Below, in pieces: positions 1-7,176 of a stretch of 7,200 bases of DNA; position 1 is the first letter of the stretch, and each line of letters begins with the position of its first letter. Origin of the DNA: Magnetococcales bacterium (lineage in GTDB: Bacteria > Pseudomonadota > Magnetococcia > Magnetococcales > Magnetaquicoccaceae); the NCBI GenBank assembly GCA_015228895.1, contig JADGCR010000115.1, positions 1 through 7,200 on the forward strand, given 5' to 3'. The position numbers and the translations under genes were made by a program. The notes under the pieces are model-generated. The model made no database searches and was not told the origin of the DNA. It saw only the letters and a list, made by a program, of their open reading frames with translations.

Positions 1-1245
1 CTCGACGACCAACTGGCCCCCCTCGCCCCACCCCCCCCGGACTCCCTGACCCTGGAAAAGGAACGGCCCGGAGAGATCCGGCAAGACTTCCCGTTCCGCC
101 GGGAAGCGGACTGTCTGGAGTCTTGCGCCGACATCCCGGAACCCCACGAATTCCTGCTGCGCATGACAATGGACCAGGGACGCCAACGATTGGCCACCCT
201 GTTCACCGAAGAGGGACACGACCACGGGGATCCAGGCCATGAAGACCATGGACGGCACGAGCACGATCATGGACGGCACGAGCACGACCATAACCATGGA
301 CATGGACACGATCACGGGAGCGGCCTGCTGGGCTGGCTGCGTGGCACTTTCGCCCACTCCCATGACGTGACCGACAAGGTGGACTCCGTCATGGAGTCCA
401 GCGAGAAAGGAATCCGGGCGCTCAAGATCTCCCTGGTGGGACTGGGGATCACGGCGATTCTGCAAGTGCTGGTGGTCCTCTATTCCGGCTCGGTGGCCCT
501 GTTGGCGGACACCATCCACAACTTCGCCGACGCCGCCACCAGCATCCCCTTGTGGGTGGCCTTCGCCCTGGCCAAACGGGGCGCCAACCGTCGCTTCACC
601 TACGGCTATGGCAAAACCGAGGATGTGGCCGGGGTGATCATTGTCGGGGTGATCTTCTTTTCCGCCTGCGTGGCGGGCTACGAGGCCATTCTCAAACTGC
701 TCCAACCCGCCCCGATGACCCACCTGGGATGGGTGGCCACGGCGGCGGTGATCGGCTTCATCGGCAACGAAGCCGTGGCGGTCTACCGCATCCGGGTGGG
801 GAGGGAGATCGGTTCCGCCGCCCTGATCGCCGACGGTCACCACTCGCGGGTGGACGGTTTTACCAGTCTGTCGGTGCTGATCGGCGTGGTGGGCACCTGG
901 CTGGGCCATCCCCTGCTGGACCCCATCGTGGGCATTGGCATCACCATCGCCATCCTGTTCATCGTCAAGGACGCGGCCAGGGCGGTGTGGCATCGTCTGA
1001 TCGACGGCATCGAACCGGAGATTCTCGACGAGATCAGCCACGCGCCCACCCACGTCCCGGGAGTGCGGACCGTGCGGACCGTGCGGGCGCGCTGGATCGG
1101 TCACAAAGTCTACAGCGATGTCACCATCGCCGTGGACCCGAACCTGCCCCTGCTGGTGGCCCACGACATCGCCCAGGCCGTGGAGCGCTCGTTGCGCGCC
1201 CATGTCCGCCTGCTGGATGAAGTCGTGGTGCGCGTCACCCCATGA
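1..1245 (+). CDS. Cation diffusion facilitator (CDF) metal/H+ antiporter, His-rich, 5' end probably outside window
   Basis: This is an inner-membrane exporter of divalent cations (Zn, Co, Ni, Fe or Cd class), driven by proton exchange. Numbering is from the ATG at 163. A His/Asp-rich tail (residues 19-52) is followed by SHD near 66-68, then about six membrane segments between 86 and 270, then a soluble C-terminal domain (275-360) of the ferredoxin-like CDF type. The metal-site motifs are visible: H119xxxD123 in ADTIHNFADA (TM2) and H227xxxD231 in ADGHHSRVD (TM5). FTYGYGKTED after TM2 is also typical. The His-tail form looks like the CzcD/ZitB-type housekeeping exporters, not the magnetosome proteins MamB/MamM, which lack such a tail; the substrate cannot be read from sequence. 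Start: the frame is open from 163 back to base 1, 43 of those 54 codons end in G or C, and there is no ATG/GTG/TTG among them. ATG 163 and 169 have no purine-rich Shine-Dalgarno, so the true start is probably upstream. If not, the gene is 163-1245 (360 aa). The last 4 bp overlap the next gene. Confidence 0.85.
   Translation, partial: LDDQLAPLAPPPPDSLTLEKERPGEIRQDFPFRREADCLESCADIPEPHEFLLRMTMDQGRQRLATLFTEEGHDHGDPGHEDHGRHEHDHGRHEHDHNHGHGHDHGSGLLGWLRGTFAHSHDVTDKVDSVMESSEKGIRALKISLVGLGITAILQVLVVLYSGSVALLADTIHNFADAATSIPLWVAFALAKRGANRRFTYGYGKTEDVAGVIIVGVIFFSACVAGYEAILKLLQPAPMTHLGWVATAAVIGFIGNEAVAVYRIRVGREIGSAALIADGHHSRVDGFTSLSVLIGVVGTWLGHPLLDPIVGIGITIAILFIVKDAARAVWHRLIDGIEPEILDEISHAPTHVPGVRTVRTVRARWIGHKVYSDVTIAVDPNLPLLVAHDIAQAVERSLRAHVRLLDEVVVRVTP
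247..288 (+). repeat. Two-copy 21-bp tandem repeat in the His-rich tail of the CDF gene
   Basis: Two head-to-tail 21-bp units (247-267 and 268-288) differ only at their last base (T versus C). Each encodes His-Gly-Arg-His-Glu-His-Asp in frame. Further CAT/CAC-GGA/GAC codons up to about 315 continue the same low-complexity pattern. This is an in-frame duplication that lengthens the presumed metal-collecting tail, and copy number is likely to vary between strains. Confidence 0.9.
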
Positions 1246-2903
1246 CCCTGCCACAGGCCATCGCCCTGCACCAGGCCGGCCGTCTGGACGAGGCCGCGAC
1301 CCTCTACCGGGAGATCCTGCGCGCCGACCCGGACCATCCGGACGCCCGCAACAATCTGGGCCTGCTGGCGCATCGACGACACCGGTTGCAGGAGGCCGAG
1401 GCCCATTTCCGGCAGGTTCTGGCCCGCCACCCCGACCACCAGGGGGCCACCCTCAATCTGGCCAACCTGCTGGCCGAACAACGACACCATGCCCAGGCCG
1501 AGGAACGGTTCCGCGCCGCCATCGCCATCCGACCCGATTTCGTCCAGGCCCATCACAATTTAAGTATCCTGTTGCAAAAACAGAAACGCTACCGGGAGGC
1601 CGAACCCCCCTGCCGCCAGGCGTTGCGTCTGCAGCCCGACCATGTGGAGGCCCTCAACAATCTGGGCATCATCCTGAAAAATCTCCACCGCCACCCGGAG
1701 GCCGAGACAGCCTACCGGCAGGCCCTGCGCCTTGCGCCGGAACATGTCGAGGTGTTGAGCAATCTGGGCGTGCTGCTGTACGCGCGACGCCGCTTCCAGG
1801 ACGCGGAGGCCCTCTACCGGCAGGCGTTGGCCCGCCAGCCCGACCATGTGACCACCCTGTACAATCTGGGCATCGTCCTGTGGGAGCAGAAACGGTTCCC
1901 GGAGGCCGTGGACGCCTATCGCCGGACCCTGGACCTGCAACCGGACCACGCGGACGCCCAATGGAACTTGAGCCTGCTGTTTCTGGTTCTGGGACGCTTT
2001 CCGGAAGCCTGGCCCCTGTTCGAGGCCCGCACCCACCCGAACATCTCCGAGACCAACTCGTTTACCATCGAGGCCGGGTTTCCCAGGTGGCGCGGGGAGG
2101 ATCTCACCGGGCGTTCCCTGTTGATCGTTCCCGAACAGGGGTACGGGGATCAGATTCAGTTCTGCCGCTTCGCCGCCCTGCTGAAAGACAAAGGGGCCGC
2201 AAAGATCTCCCTGGCCTGCAAACCGCCCCTGTGGAGCCTGTTCCAATCCCTGACCGGCGTGGAACTTTTATGGGCGCAGGAAGACCCGCGGGCCTATCCC
2301 CCACACGATTTCTGGACCCTGCCCCTCTCCCTCCCCCTGCATCTGAACACCACCCTCCAGACCCTGCCGGCAAAACTGCCCTATTTGCGCCCCCCAACCG
2401 AACGGATCTCCCACTGGGCGACCCGAATCACCGGAAACGGCTATCGGGTGGGCCTGGTCTGGAAGGGCAATCCGGGCTTCAACAACGACACCAGGCGCTC
2501 CCTGCCCGGTCTGCCCCAGATGGCACCCTGGTGGGAAATTCCCGGCGTGATCTTTTTCAGTCTGCAAAAAGGGAACGGGGAAGCGGAGGCCCGCCATCCC
2601 CCCCTCCGGCAACCCATCCACCATTGCGCCGACGAGATCCGGGATTTCGCGGATACCGCCGCCATCATCCACGCCCTGGATCTGGTCATCAGTTGCGACA
2701 CCGCCGTCGCCCATCTGGCCGGAGCCATGGGCAAACCCTGTTGGGTGTTGCTGCCGGCGCGGGGGACCGATTGGCGCTGGTTGCACGAACGGGAGGACTC
2801 CCCCTGGTATCCGGGGGTCATGCGTCTGTTTCGTCAAACCACCCCTGGTGACTGGTCCGGGGTGGTGCGGCGGGTGGTGGCGGCTTTGCAACGGAGGGAT
2901 TGA
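1242..2903 (+). CDS. TPR-repeat protein with C-terminal GT9/GT41-like glycosyltransferase domain
   Basis: Residues 1-265 form about eight TPR units of 34 residues. The regular ones begin at the P-D/E-H or P-D-F motifs near 30, 64, 98, 132, 166, 200 and 234, and a first unit covers about 1-29. Residues ~285-553 form a GT-B-like domain. EQGYGDQIQFCRFAALL (298-314) matches the EQG-GD-xQFxRY motif typical of bacterial TPR-glycosyltransferases. WKGNP (407-411) with ND and RS nearby, and DFADTAAIIHALDLVISCDT (468-487) then AVAHLAGAMGKP, match the nucleotide-sugar-binding half. There is no signal peptide or membrane segment, so it is probably cytoplasmic. Family knowledge suggests glycosylation of protein or surface polysaccharide; acceptor and sugar donor are unknown. 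The ATG overlaps the CDF stop in ATGA (1242-1245) and has no Shine-Dalgarno of its own, which indicates translational coupling. The TGA lies inside the left arm of the downstream terminator. Confidence 0.85.
   Translation: MTLPQAIALHQAGRLDEAATLYREILRADPDHPDARNNLGLLAHRRHRLQEAEAHFRQVLARHPDHQGATLNLANLLAEQRHHAQAEERFRAAIAIRPDFVQAHHNLSILLQKQKRYREAEPPCRQALRLQPDHVEALNNLGIILKNLHRHPEAETAYRQALRLAPEHVEVLSNLGVLLYARRRFQDAEALYRQALARQPDHVTTLYNLGIVLWEQKRFPEAVDAYRRTLDLQPDHADAQWNLSLLFLVLGRFPEAWPLFEARTHPNISETNSFTIEAGFPRWRGEDLTGRSLLIVPEQGYGDQIQFCRFAALLKDKGAAKISLACKPPLWSLFQSLTGVELLWAQEDPRAYPPHDFWTLPLSLPLHLNTTLQTLPAKLPYLRPPTERISHWATRITGNGYRVGLVWKGNPGFNNDTRRSLPGLPQMAPWWEIPGVIFFSLQKGNGEAEARHPPLRQPIHHCADEIRDFADTAAIIHALDLVISCDTAVAHLAGAMGKPCWVLLPARGTDWRWLHEREDSPWYPGVMRLFRQTTPGDWSGVVRRVVAALQRRD
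1329..2036 (+). repeat. Array of 102-bp repeats encoding TPR units
   Basis: Seven 34-codon units follow one another without a break. The DNA itself is partly conserved: the 10-mer CAATCTGGGC occurs at 1352, 1658, 1760 and 1862, spaced by exact multiples of 102 bp (306, 102, 102). It encodes the N-L-G of helix A. The CGGCAGGC-type helix B codons also recur. The last three intervals look more alike than the earlier ones, which fits more recent unit duplication or conversion there. Confidence 0.85.
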
Positions 2904-2957: not shown

Positions 2958-5726
2958 TTACGCCACATAGGAGCAGGCGCTGGCGGCGGTACGGGTATCC
3001 ATGTCACGACCACGATTGGTGTGATCATCGATCTCGGCGGCCGAGCCGATCATGCGACCAAACAGGAAGGTGGTGAACGCGGCGCTCTCCAGGGAGGCTG
3101 CGGTGATCTCACCATTCGCGTAAGGTTTCCACAACATCTTCAACAGAATGACGGCAATGACGGCATCCACGTTGACACAGTAGATATCCTTGCTGATGCC
3201 GGTCTTGAACAGGGCGTGCACCAGTTGATGGTAGAAATCCTGGAAGATGTTGTAGGCCTTTCTCTGCTTGAAGAGATTGTCCACGAACACCTCGCGGGGA
3301 TCGAAATTCTCAGGCTTGCCCTTGAACACCGGATGATTGACGCAGGGAATCTTGGCGTAGTCCATGCTTCCGGCAAACTTGGCCTTGGCCTTGTACGCCT
3401 TGTACTCGTTGGCATAGGCCAGCGCCATGGCGGAGAGCTGCAGACCGTGCGCCTTGTCGCCCGGATCCATCAGACCGGAATCCTTGAAACGCTCCATGAG
3501 GAACGCGATGGCCTCGTAACCGTTGCCACCATGAGCGTAACCGGTGTGGGTGAGGAAACCCAGATAGGCCTTGTTGACCTGAATGCGACCCGGATCCATG
3601 GGACCGTCGGCACTGACCGCCCCCTTGGGACCCTGGGCGGAGATGGTACCCGGTCCGTTGGTGACCAGCAAACCCACCAGCACGGAAAAGCTGAACAGCT
3701 CCTCTTCGTTGGGACGCCGCCCCAGCAGGGAGAGAAACGCCGTCTCGGTGAAGCTCCAGGAGTCCATCAACTCTCCGTTGTCCACACCCTGGAAGCCCTT
3801 CTTGTCCTGCTTGTCGGAAGGCACCACACAACCCACCAGGGTGCTGAAAATACGGAAATGCCACGGCATGGCCAACAGGGTGGTCACGGAGAGACGCCGC
3901 TTCATGAGGGGACGCCAACCCAGATGACAACAAATGGCGGCCAGCACCGTGCTGTCCCGCACCCCCCCCTCGACCCCATCGGTCAAAGCCTTCAGGAACT
4001 CCACGAACACCGACTTGCAACCCCGGTTTTCCAGGGCGGTCAACATGGCCTTGCCACGCTTGCCGCTCTTGCCCGCCACCAGGATGTCACGGGTGCCGTT
4101 CTGGACGGCCTGGGCCAACAGGGGCTGATAATCGAAGGAGAGATCCTCCGGATCGGTCATGCCCGACAGACCGAACAGGTCAACGAACGCCTGAACCGCG
4201 TCACGGGCCGGCTTGACCTCGTTGGGCCCCAGAATGGCCACCCCGGTGGACAGGACCACATTGGGGCTGCTGCCCGCCTCACGGGCGGCGTCCGCGGCCA
4301 GGAGGCCCGTGGTGCCGCTCTGGTTGACAAAGGCGTTCAAGGCCACATTGGCCATGGCGGTCCCGGTGGCGGCGGGATACTCGCGGACCAGGGAGAGCAC
4401 CAGGTTCTCTTCCAGGGTGTGGGTGGAGGCGTCCAGCACGCTCACCCCATGCAACTGGGAAACCTGGGTCGAGGCATCCATGCGGGACGCCCCGGAGCAG
4501 TCCTTCATCGCCTGGCGGGGGAAGATGGCGCCCACCTGTTTGGCCAGAGCCGCGATCTGTTCGTTGTAGGGATGCAGGGCCTCCACCACGGGCAGTTGCA
4601 GCTCCTTGGGCAGGGGCGCGTCCTGGGCGCTGAAGAACCAGCATTTGGGAGCGAGATTGCCACGGGGTTCGAAGTCGGGACGAATGCCGTTCATCATCAT
4701 GACCGAGGTCATGGCCTGGGGAATATGGGCGATGTTGGTCACCACCGCGCCCTTGGCCGAGCAGGCCGGGGTTTCCGGGGTGAAGATGGCCTTGACGCCG
4801 AACTTGTCCATGAACCACTTTTCCTTGGCCAGGGCATCGTCGCCGGAACCGGCGATGGCGCCCGCGTGACCGCAGGAGCGGGTCAGTTTGGCCTTCCAGC
4901 GACCCACCACACAGGCGACCACCGGCTTGTGGAACACCAGATCCTTCTCATAGTATCCACCCGGTTCGATATACATCACCGCCGCCTTGGTGCGATCGTC
5001 GTTGTGCATGGCGTGGGTGAATTCCGGGGCGGCGAAGTGGATGTAGACATCCTTGCCGGAAGAGATGGAAACCGTGGTCCCCCAACCCGCCGTCAGGAGA
5101 TAGGTGGCGATGGTGGTGGTGAAGTTGCCGGAGTTGGAATAAAGACCAATGGACCCCGGCACCAGGGACTCTTCCGGGGCGTTGCCACCCAGGGCGCCGC
5201 CAATGCGCACGTGGTTGTGGGCGTCGCCGACGCCCAGACAGTTGGCGCCGAAGACATCCACGCCGCGCCATTGGCAATACTGGCGGATCATGCGGGCGTG
5301 CTTGACTTTCACTTTTTCCGTGAGGATGACCACCTTTTTGAGGTCCGGATTGACCCGCACCGCCTCGATGACCGCATCCTTGACCCCGTCCGGTGGGACA
5401 TAGACCACGGCCACGTTGAACTTCTTGCCGTCGTTCAGGGCTTCCAGCACGTTGTTGTAAACCGGGATGTCTCCCCGTTTGGTCTTCATCACCGAACCGG
5501 AGCGACCCGGCATCACGCCGCAGACGATGTTGCCGCCGGAGTATTCATGGCTGATGGGGGTCACCGTGGTGCTTTCGCCCCCCATGATGTTAAGAACGCA
5601 CACCCGATCCTCCTTGGTGGCCAGTTCGGCCAGGGAGTGGATCCCCACATAATAGGGAAACTCCGTCTCACCACGGGGATGCATGAAATTTTGCCCTTCT
5701 TTGGGTTGAGTATGAAATGATGTCAT
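2958..5726 (-). CDS. aclA: ATP citrate lyase large (alpha) subunit, unusually long form
   Basis: With AclB it should cleave citrate to acetyl-CoA and oxaloacetate using ATP and CoA, the committing step of the reductive TCA cycle. Residues ~20-350 are succinyl-CoA-synthetase-alpha-like: PGSIGLYSNSG (190-200) is the CoA-ligase motif and GHAGAI (286-291) carries the phosphorylated His287. Residues ~655-922 are citrate-synthase-like: LLGRRPNEEE (667-676), AHGGNG (731-736), VNHPVFK (796-802, His798), NVDAVIAV (852-859, Asp854). The residue expected to be the first catalytic His (DHG in relatives) is Asn690 (VTNGP). Between these parts lie about 300 residues (~355-650) not found in the classical ~608-residue subunit. 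It follows aclB by 58 bp. ATG 5726 has GAAAGAGG at a 6-nt spacing; Met15 is an alternative start with GAAGGG upstream. The size fits the atypical lyase type I recall for Magnetococcus and tubeworm symbionts. A citryl-CoA synthetase/lyase-like role is the alternative. Confidence 0.85.
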   Translation of the reverse strand: MTSFHTQPKEGQNFMHPRGETEFPYYVGIHSLAELATKEDRVCVLNIMGGESTTVTPISHEYSGGNIVCGVMPGRSGSVMKTKRGDIPVYNNVLEALNDGKKFNVAVVYVPPDGVKDAVIEAVRVNPDLKKVVILTEKVKVKHARMIRQYCQWRGVDVFGANCLGVGDAHNHVRIGGALGGNAPEESLVPGSIGLYSNSGNFTTTIATYLLTAGWGTTVSISSGKDVYIHFAAPEFTHAMHNDDRTKAAVMYIEPGGYYEKDLVFHKPVVACVVGRWKAKLTRSCGHAGAIAGSGDDALAKEKWFMDKFGVKAIFTPETPACSAKGAVVTNIAHIPQAMTSVMMMNGIRPDFEPRGNLAPKCWFFSAQDAPLPKELQLPVVEALHPYNEQIAALAKQVGAIFPRQAMKDCSGASRMDASTQVSQLHGVSVLDASTHTLEENLVLSLVREYPAATGTAMANVALNAFVNQSGTTGLLAADAAREAGSSPNVVLSTGVAILGPNEVKPARDAVQAFVDLFGLSGMTDPEDLSFDYQPLLAQAVQNGTRDILVAGKSGKRGKAMLTALENRGCKSVFVEFLKALTDGVEGGVRDSTVLAAICCHLGWRPLMKRRLSVTTLLAMPWHFRIFSTLVGCVVPSDKQDKKGFQGVDNGELMDSWSFTETAFLSLLGRRPNEEELFSFSVLVGLLVTNGPGTISAQGPKGAVSADGPMDPGRIQVNKAYLGFLTHTGYAHGGNGYEAIAFLMERFKDSGLMDPGDKAHGLQLSAMALAYANEYKAYKAKAKFAGSMDYAKIPCVNHPVFKGKPENFDPREVFVDNLFKQRKAYNIFQDFYHQLVHALFKTGISKDIYCVNVDAVIAVILLKMLWKPYANGEITAASLESAAFTTFLFGRMIGSAAEIDDHTNRGRDMDTRTAASACSYVA

Positions 5727-5732
5727 GGAAAA

Positions 5733-5740
5733 CCTCTTTC
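5733..5740 (-). promoter_or_regulatory. Ribosome binding site of aclA
   Basis: On the minus strand GAAAGAGG lies 6 nt before the ATG at 5726. It supports that start over the internal Met15. The rest of the 58-bp gap (5727-5784) shows no hairpin or promoter, consistent with co-transcription from aclB. Confidence 0.7.
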
Positions 5741-5784
5741 CCGTTTAGATTCTCAACGATTCGACCCCAAGGCCGACACCTGGT

Positions 5785-7059
5785 CTATTTCTTGATGCCC
5801 AACTTGTTGGCGATGACCTGACGACCCTCTTTTCTCATCCAGTCGTCCACGGCCTTGGCATAGTTGATCACCTCGCTCATGGCCGAGTCATAACCGAACA
5901 TGGCGTAAGGGAGACCCAGCGAGTCCAAAGTGTCTTTCAGATAGCCCAAACCTTGAATCAGATTGGGGCCGCCCCGTCCAACCACCACAAACAAAGGCGT
6001 TGGTCCATGGGTGTTGAAATAGTTGCGCAATCCGTCGCCCATGGCGCGGAAGGTTTCGTAGATGTCGGTGTTGTTGGCCTTGCCGCCGATGATGAACAGA
6101 ACATTGGTCTGGGGCAGCCAGTGTTTGTAGGTGATGTCGCTGATCTGTTTCATCTTGGCATACGGGGGATTGCCGCCGAAGTCGGAGGAGATGGTGGCGA
6201 TGTCGCCCAGCAGTTCGGTCACCAGGGCGTTGGCCCCGCCCCCGAAAGTCATGGCGGTGACGGTCCCGGCGGGATTGATGACATAGACATCCGACTGTCC
6301 CTGATAGGTCCGGAGTTGATTGACCTCCAGTTCGTATTCGGACAGGTTGGTGTTGTCCAGATTGGTGGGCAGACCCAGACGCCTGGAGTTGCGGTCATCG
6401 CCATCGAAGGCGCATTTGAAATCGCAGGCCATGGGGACCAGACGGCCATTGGGATCGCGCCAGATGCGGATGGGGTTGATCTCCAGGGTGGTCATCCCGT
6501 AATTGTTGAACAGATCCCAGAGCTTGGTGATGTTCTGCACCAGGGGGCTGAGGATTTCGTTCGGGGCGTTCATTTTGTCGAGGGCGTTGGAGATGACGAA
6601 TCCCTTCAGGCCGGTCAACGGGTCGAAAGGCACCACCGCGATTTTGCTGGGGGGGAGCTCCTCGATATCCATGCCACCGTGGTGGGTGATGGTGAGGGTG
6701 GGGGCGCGAAACACCGTGTTGTCGGTTATGGAGACGTAAATCTCGTGTTCCGCCTTCACGAAGCCTTCGAAAGTCACCCCTTCGGATTTGGAGGTTTGAT
6801 TGCCGTGGGTATGTTCGGCGAAATAGAGCCGTTCTTTTTCTTTGAGGGCGGTGCGCAGATCCGTGGCTTTTCCTACCAGACCGGCCTTGCCTTTTTTGCC
6901 GATTCCCCCTTTGAAAATGGGTTTGATGAGGCATCCTCCCCATTTGTCGATCAGGGCCTGGATTTCGTCAGGTGTCGCTTCCGGGCCAAGCACTTCAGAA
7001 GTCGGGAAATCGACATACTTGAGTAACTTGGCCCCCCATTTCATGCCTGTAATTTGCAT
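5785..7059 (-). CDS. aclB: ATP citrate lyase small (beta) subunit
   Basis: This is the ATP-grasp, succinyl-CoA-synthetase-beta-like partner of AclA. It binds ATP-Mg and citrate and supplies the phosphate that passes to His287 of AclA. Visible features: the nucleotide-binding region CLIKPIFKGGIGKKGKAGLVG (split over 43-63) with KP (46-47) and GKAGLVG; LEINPIRI (192-199), the Mg-binding E-x-N-P motif; the flavodoxin-like C-terminal half with FGGGANALVTELLGD (272-286), IIGGKANNTD (323-332) and GRGGPN (361-366). The last two match the stretches of animal ACLY that hold citrate (Asn/Thr and Arg). Length 424 is slightly above the ~398 of green-sulfur AclB. It is the first gene of the aclBA operon, the same gene order as in Chlorobium. 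ATG 7059 is preceded by TGAGGA about 9-10 nt upstream; Met6 is a weaker alternative start. Confidence 0.9.
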   Translation of the reverse strand: MQITGMKWGAKLLKYVDFPTSEVLGPEATPDEIQALIDKWGGCLIKPIFKGGIGKKGKAGLVGKATDLRTALKEKERLYFAEHTHGNQTSKSEGVTFEGFVKAEHEIYVSITDNTVFRAPTLTITHHGGMDIEELPPSKIAVVPFDPLTGLKGFVISNALDKMNAPNEILSPLVQNITKLWDLFNNYGMTTLEINPIRIWRDPNGRLVPMACDFKCAFDGDDRNSRRLGLPTNLDNTNLSEYELEVNQLRTYQGQSDVYVINPAGTVTAMTFGGGANALVTELLGDIATISSDFGGNPPYAKMKQISDITYKHWLPQTNVLFIIGGKANNTDIYETFRAMGDGLRNYFNTHGPTPLFVVVGRGGPNLIQGLGYLKDTLDSLGLPYAMFGYDSAMSEVINYAKAVDDWMRKEGRQVIANKLGIKK

Positions 7060-7105: not shown

Positions 7106-7176
7106 GAAGCACTAACAAAAAACGGGTAAGGCGGCGTAAGAGTCTTGGCCGTTCATTACCCGTTGTTTGTTGCTTC
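7106..7176 (-). promoter_or_regulatory. Long hairpin in the leader of aclBA (terminator or leader/operator element)
   Basis: Arms 7114-7129 (AACAAAAAACGGGTAA) and 7156-7171 (TTACCCGTTGTTTGTT) are complementary at 15 of 16 positions. They extend by GAAGC (7106-7110) with GCTTC (7172-7176) across a 3-nt bulge. The 26-nt interior holds CGGC (7132-7135) and GCCG (7148-7151), which can pair as an inner stem. On the minus strand the stem ends in T6, so it could terminate a gene entering from beyond 7200. Equally it could fold in the aclB leader RNA or bind a regulator. No convincing sigma-70 promoter is visible between it and aclB (7060-7105). Confidence 0.7.

Follow-up and report, generated by a model that had tools for sequence, protein, structure and literature searches.

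An aclBA gene pair from a Magnetococcales bacterium assigned to type II ATP citrate lyase, with an oversized AclA that appears to contain a second, degenerate lyase domain

The first 7,200 nucleotides of contig JADGCR010000115.1 (assembly GCA_015228895.1, a Magnetococcales bacterium), the whole stretch analysed here and referred to as the window, contain two adjacent genes predicted to encode a type II ATP citrate lyase (ACL):

5785..7059, minus strand: aclB, open reading frame of 424 residues, putative ATP-grasp and citrate-binding subunit
2958..5726, minus strand: aclA, open reading frame of 922 residues, putative type II ACL large subunit

The frames run from 7059 to 5785 and from 5726 to 2958, exactly as placed by the initial annotation, which also gave AclA its 922 residues. 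They are separated by 58 nt, and by eye an AGAGG/GAGG-like sequence precedes the ATG of each gene. An AclB match lies directly upstream of AclA in 29 of the 33 loci examined in relatives. The other four are L023 and L028, with at most 204 bases upstream, L014 with 975 and L015 with 8,000; in L015, an AclA is present although these 8 kb contain nothing that matches AclB.

Above their Pfam cut-offs, AclA matches CoA_binding and Succ_CoA_lig, and AclB matches ATP-grasp_2 and Citrate_bind (PF16114, 58.3 bits against a cut-off of 26.8), with Citrate_synth_N (PF24948) on AclB remaining under its cut-off (38.8 against 83 bits). Thirteen genomes of relatives (11 Magnetococcales, one Nitrospinaceae and one Gallionella) and 14 control genomes were examined for this domain and for pathway markers; every relative has one Citrate_bind protein, and PF16114 has no match in any control. 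In the PDB, AclB scores best with the large subunit of citryl-CoA synthetase (CCS; E 7e-37, 130 bits), followed by the ACLs of Methanothrix (85 bits), human (~56-61) and Chlorobium (53), with succinate-CoA ligases at 43 bits or less. For the N-terminal part of AclA the best match is again CCS (110 bits), and the similarity of AclA to Chlorobium AclA is weak (42 bits). The ACL landmarks picked out in the initial annotation are all present: GHAGAI (H287) and NVD (D854) in AclA, and EINP, GGKANNTD and GRGGPN in AclB.

Among the matches listed, AclA is 65-91% and AclB 71-93% identical to the other 119 homologues. The nearest AclB homologues, and the nearest named ones of AclA, are from Magnetococcales; for AclA, tubeworm symbionts and other proteobacteria follow further down. 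AclA shares 68% identity with the named type II subunit of Magnetococcus MC-1, 67% with that of MO-1 and 68% with that of Endoriftia, which bears out the earlier attribution to the divergent ACL of MC-1 and tubeworm symbionts. Many named AclA homologues are annotated as ‘CoA-binding protein’ or ‘succinyl-CoA synthetase alpha subunit’. The nearest genome loci, each at 91%, belong to the Magnetococcales WMHbin3 (L001) and nNGHbin2 (L012), and we infer from these similarities that the source organism is a relative of freshwater magnetotactic cocci. In the available portion of PMC6783814, WMHbin3 is assigned to ‘Ca. Magnetaquicoccaceae’ and type II ACL is said to occur in many freshwater Magnetococcales.

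Judged by sequence, the gene pair is a member of the already proposed type II ACL family, and the enzyme type is not new; the naming is credited to Hugler and Sievert (2011, as cited in the accessible part of PMC3522073). It consists of two adjacent subunit genes with an AclA of about 900 residues, as in type II. A type I AclA would have ~600 residues and one lyase domain, and here there are 922 residues and two lyase-type domains; the citrate-binding domain in the ATP-grasp subunit, also characteristic of type I, is present in AclB as PF16114. The earlier reading of the large subunit as oversized, set against ~608 residues in green sulfur bacteria, is likewise correct: AclA measures 900-937 residues in 47 aligned type II stretches, and its Chlorobium counterpart 617 in the PDB.

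Could the genes instead encode an ordinary succinyl-CoA synthetase (SCS) or malate-CoA ligase with fused extra domains and no citrate lyase? Both subunits are matched by NCBIfam succinate-CoA ligase models, but far below the curated cut-offs (130 and 112 bits against 336 and 353 for AclA; 67 and 64 against 370 and 376 for AclB). Citrate_bind is above cut-off on AclB, the PDB ranking puts CCS well ahead of any succinate-CoA ligase, and a separate sucC is found above cut-off in 12 of the 13 relatives. SCS beta chains from eight sucC loci share 24-30% identity with AclB over 118-236 residues. A tree of the ATP-grasp subunit was built from 23 rows, with type I ACL and CCS represented by one row each, trimmed to the stretch aligned in the PDB search. 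Fourteen type II AclB fall on one side of a branch (support 99/93), and seven SCS beta chains from related genomes on one side of another (100/100). The initial annotation had held that clustering with ordinary SCS would speak against it; with AclB standing apart by model scores, Citrate_bind, PDB ranking, identity and tree, SCS identity was rejected, and we regard it as highly improbable. Two placements in this tree fit the type II assignment less well: the CCS row groups on the SCS side (99/98), and the type I row, whose branch is very long, joins type II. How CCS, type I and type II branched relative to one another is therefore not settled.

Why is AclA so large? Its layout, as predicted from profile and fold comparisons, is as follows:

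4677..5636, minus strand: CCS alpha-like module with the phospho-His H287 (AclA 31-350)
3828..4529, minus strand: first lyase-type domain, catalytic residues lost, with its own invariant motif R404/K408-D417 (AclA 400-633)
2961..3827, minus strand: second lyase domain with H732, H798 and D854 of NVD (AclA 634-922)

In a profile comparison (hhalign), the middle domain (~400-633) matches the C-terminal domain with 95% probability and E 2e-8. Its stand-alone AlphaFold model gave 14 Foldseek matches at E<=0.001, each of them a citryl-CoA lyase or an ACL, with a citryl-CoA lyase at the top; the domain is thus predicted to have the citryl-CoA lyase/citrate synthase fold. When citrate synthases are aligned to the full model, they span ~405-914 with 321-344 aligned residues. 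The stretch 634-914 has just 281, so both lyase copies are predicted to contribute. The kinship of the middle domain is visible solely by profile-profile and fold comparison. For the C-terminal copy, the NCBIfam citryl-CoA lyase model NF004869 matches AclA 645-912 (E 3e-8, 33.3 bits, under the curated cut-off of 212). A further synthetase-type domain was considered for the extra region and rejected, since hhalign gives the middle domain 0.1% probability against the N-terminal module. The extra ~300 residues of AclA, and with them its excess size, appear to be explained by this second, catalytically degenerate copy of the lyase domain. Stand-alone homologues of the C-terminal domain were also inspected (best 120 of 737); many resemble fragments at contig ends, and the names of several include ‘partial’; a clear split ancestor could therefore not be identified. 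At one locus (L033:9138-9992), the AclA middle domain carries an insertion of ~29 residues, with the match interrupted at residues 542-545.

The duplication was read from the alignment of 47 family members, in which H287 (phospho-His, GHAG), H732 (AHGG), H798 (NHP) and D854 (NVD) are invariant (47/47). We take these four to be the catalytic residues of the family, with equivalents in the human and pig enzymes. H732 aligns with the AHGG histidine of citryl-CoA lyase. N690, also invariant (47/47), aligns with the histidine of the DHG motif in citryl-CoA lyase. In the middle copy, the hhalign counterparts are not conserved: position 503 is E in 16 of 47, 546 is K in 13, R in 11 and a gap in 11, and 592 is D in 17, Q in 15 and S in 4. 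This loss bears on whether both lyase copies are catalytic, or whether the middle copy performs some other reaction, with no dead partner involved. Such an arrangement would agree with the residues that are invariant in the middle copy (R404, K408, D409, S411, G412, S414, M416, D417 and R482, all 47/47) and with its frequent histidines at 426 (40/47), 601 (36/47) and 623 (38/47). However, the counterparts of H732, H798 and D854 are not conserved, and in the alignment the frequent histidines fall opposite neither H732 nor H798; we consider this arrangement improbable. We read the middle copy as degenerate, retained for structure or for residue donation to its partner.

From these features we infer a reaction in which AclB would bind ATP and citrate and H287 of AclA would carry the phosphate. 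Citryl-CoA would then be formed, and the C-terminal lyase domain would cleave it into acetyl-CoA and oxaloacetate through H732, H798 and D854. The lyase domain would have been duplicated in tandem within AclA, the first copy losing its catalytic residues and probably acting as an integral, catalytically inactive partner for the second. One AclA chain may thereby supply the lyase-domain pair that other ACLs form from two chains. The enzyme probably serves to cleave citrate in the reductive tricarboxylic acid (TCA) cycle. Taken jointly, a Magnetococcales type II ACL with a tandem-duplicated lyase domain, a C-terminal copy splitting citryl-CoA and a likely role in the reductive TCA cycle is an interpretation in which we place high confidence. 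Computation shows the family, the pairing of the genes, the domains, their duplication and which residues are conserved; the chemistry, the role as partner and the direction of the cycle go beyond this.

Several observations pull the other way. By profile, the C-terminal copy matches the PDB citryl-CoA lyase weakly (E 0.0066), and a PDB sequence search with the middle domain gave no significant match (best E 0.65, an imelysin). H798 and D854 match the citrate-synthase GHRVYK and lyase NVD residues in stretches that are individually non-significant, and Asn690 stands where the lyase has histidine, so the lyase chemistry may differ. The full model has a predicted template-modelling score (pTM) of 0.63, and its per-residue confidence (pLDDT) falls below 50 at 281-295 (the phospho-His loop), 407-410 (part of the invariant motif), 692-708 and 908-922; residues 398-407 are poor in the stand-alone model too.

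What is new here, the account of the domains and the predicted residues, should apply to the whole type II family. It is also possible, with the chances somewhat short of even, that the entire family works as an intramolecular pseudo-dimer, in which a dead scaffold with R404/K408-D417 would aid the active site of the other copy, with half the chains of other ACLs and a changed lyase centre at Asn690. If true, this would represent a separate assembly solution for ATP-driven citrate cleavage.

Is the enzyme used for CO2 fixation? PF01558 (2-oxoacid oxidoreductase) occurs in all 13 relatives and TIGR03710, above cut-off, in 11 of them (10 of the 11 Magnetococcales); in the 14 controls the counts are 11, E. 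coli included, and 6. RubisCO is found in one relative, the Gallionella, and in no Magnetococcales (controls, 5/14), and citrate synthase is above cut-off in 12, lacking in one Magnetococcales (controls, 13/14). In 10 of the 11 Magnetococcales genomes, the TIGR03710-type gene has sucC and a sucD-like gene as neighbours, the G009 copy being a fragment under cut-off; in the eleventh (G008), the pieces lie near the starts of two contigs. A second TIGR03710-type oxidoreductase is located ~5 kb from citrate synthase in G002, G003, G005 and G008. In three loci from outside the Magnetococcales, aclBA has TCA genes beside it: isocitrate dehydrogenase in L024 and L027, and both aconitase and isocitrate dehydrogenase in L025.

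The Magnetococcales relatives therefore encode parts of the reductive TCA cycle and, in 10 of 11, citrate synthase as well, so that an oxidative cycle is possible too; for this reason reductive-TCA autotrophy, judged from these genomes, is plausible and not more. PF01558 and TIGR03710 are unspecific, being frequent in the controls, and the missing RubisCO is weak evidence because the completeness of the relatives’ genomes is not given. Furthermore, the neighbourhoods offer little: 12 neighbour proteins from nine Magnetococcales loci, seven of them with a Pfam match, include no TCA enzyme, and the one Nitrospinaceae neighbour scanned (L021) is no TCA gene. A true type II ACL might serve another purpose, such as biosynthetic acetyl-CoA from citrate beside an oxidative TCA cycle. 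The citrate synthases, with two above-cut-off copies in two genomes, would suit such a role, as would the type II-like lyase domains found, among the best 120 of 737, in a Paraburkholderia entry and many contigs of unnamed source. However, all 11 Magnetococcales relatives have PF01558 and lack a RubisCO match, unspecific as these markers are, and PMC6783814 describes reductive-TCA CO2 fixation in MC-1 and IT-1 as strongly backed by experiment. We therefore think a role other than CO2 fixation unlikely, though less so than two active lyase copies.

Two of these cases stand out in their own right. The Paraburkholderia entry (P0337) is a partial protein named Paraburkholderia sp. WSM4177, with a 59% match to the type II lyase domain. 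Paraburkholderia is mostly heterotrophic, and type II ACL may therefore not always mean autotrophy. In the Gallionella metagenome-assembled genome (L025/G013), type II ACL is followed by aconitase and isocitrate dehydrogenase, with sucC and a sucD-like gene on the same contig and RubisCO on another. This suggests two CO2-fixation routes in an iron-oxidiser lineage, and a binning error for the RubisCO contig is possible.

Two genes lie outside the pair:

163-1245, plus strand: cation diffusion facilitator (CDF) transporter by Pfam and open reading frame, tail to tail with the aclA side
1242-2903, plus strand: tetratricopeptide repeat (TPR) protein, also tail to tail with aclA; its glycosyltransferase-9-like match stays under cut-off

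The transporter has a His-rich N-terminal stretch and scores ~131 bits with the MamB/MamM models; it is not called a magnetosome gene because this is far under the cut-off of 350, and the window contains no recognised magnetosome gene. Upstream of aclB, at 7121-7164, the minus strand has a 9-bp inverted repeat with arms AACGGGTAA (7164-7156) and TTACCCGTT (7129-7121), and then a T run. This structure resembles the terminator of a preceding gene, with a loop exceeding the length accepted by the terminator scan. Promoter and terminator scans of the window were at chance (0 where shuffled sequence gave 1.5 on average, and 3 where it gave 4.4), and Rfam gave nothing at the gathering threshold.

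The proposed domain layout would account for the odd AclA size of the Magnetococcus citrate-cleaving enzyme, which is termed ‘postulated’ or ‘putative’ in the parts available of PMC3522073 and PMC6783814. It singles out H287, H732, H798, D854 and N690 as mutation targets, predicts a distinct subunit make-up that makes the enzyme assignment directly testable, and yields a signature by which metagenomic ACLs can be sorted into types I and II. No mention of lyase-domain duplication in type II ACL was found in the literature searched, which left most subscription papers outside, so that ‘unreported’ is not established.

Among known systems, the type II ACLs of Magnetococcus marinus MC-1 (Mmc1_3638/3639), MO-1 and the tubeworm symbionts have the same oversized AclA, and the loci of relatives show the same two-gene arrangement, with no essential difference here. 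In tubeworm symbionts and some Chromatiaceae, type II aclAB is described together with genes for aconitase, isocitrate dehydrogenase, malate dehydrogenase, 2-oxoglutarate oxidoreductase (OGOR) and fumarate reductase (PMC6315080, in the section available), and for Nitrospina ACL genes of low similarity are mentioned (PMC3578206, likewise in part). Type I ACLs (Chlorobium AclAB, Methanothrix, human ACLY) share the module order, synthetase alpha then lyase, and an ATP-grasp and citrate-binding partner is common to both types. However, a bacterial type I AclA has ~600 residues and one lyase module, whereas here there are 922 residues, two modules and Asn690 in place of the lyase histidine. In the citryl-CoA synthetase/citryl-CoA lyase (CCS/CCL) system, the lyase stands by itself as a protein of 268 residues with a single domain, whereas here it is fused and doubled. 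A fused CCS-CCL ‘AclA’ of Planctomycetes, described as a ccsB-ccl fusion, is placed phylogenetically between CCS/CCL and type II ACL in the accessible text of PMC5459899.

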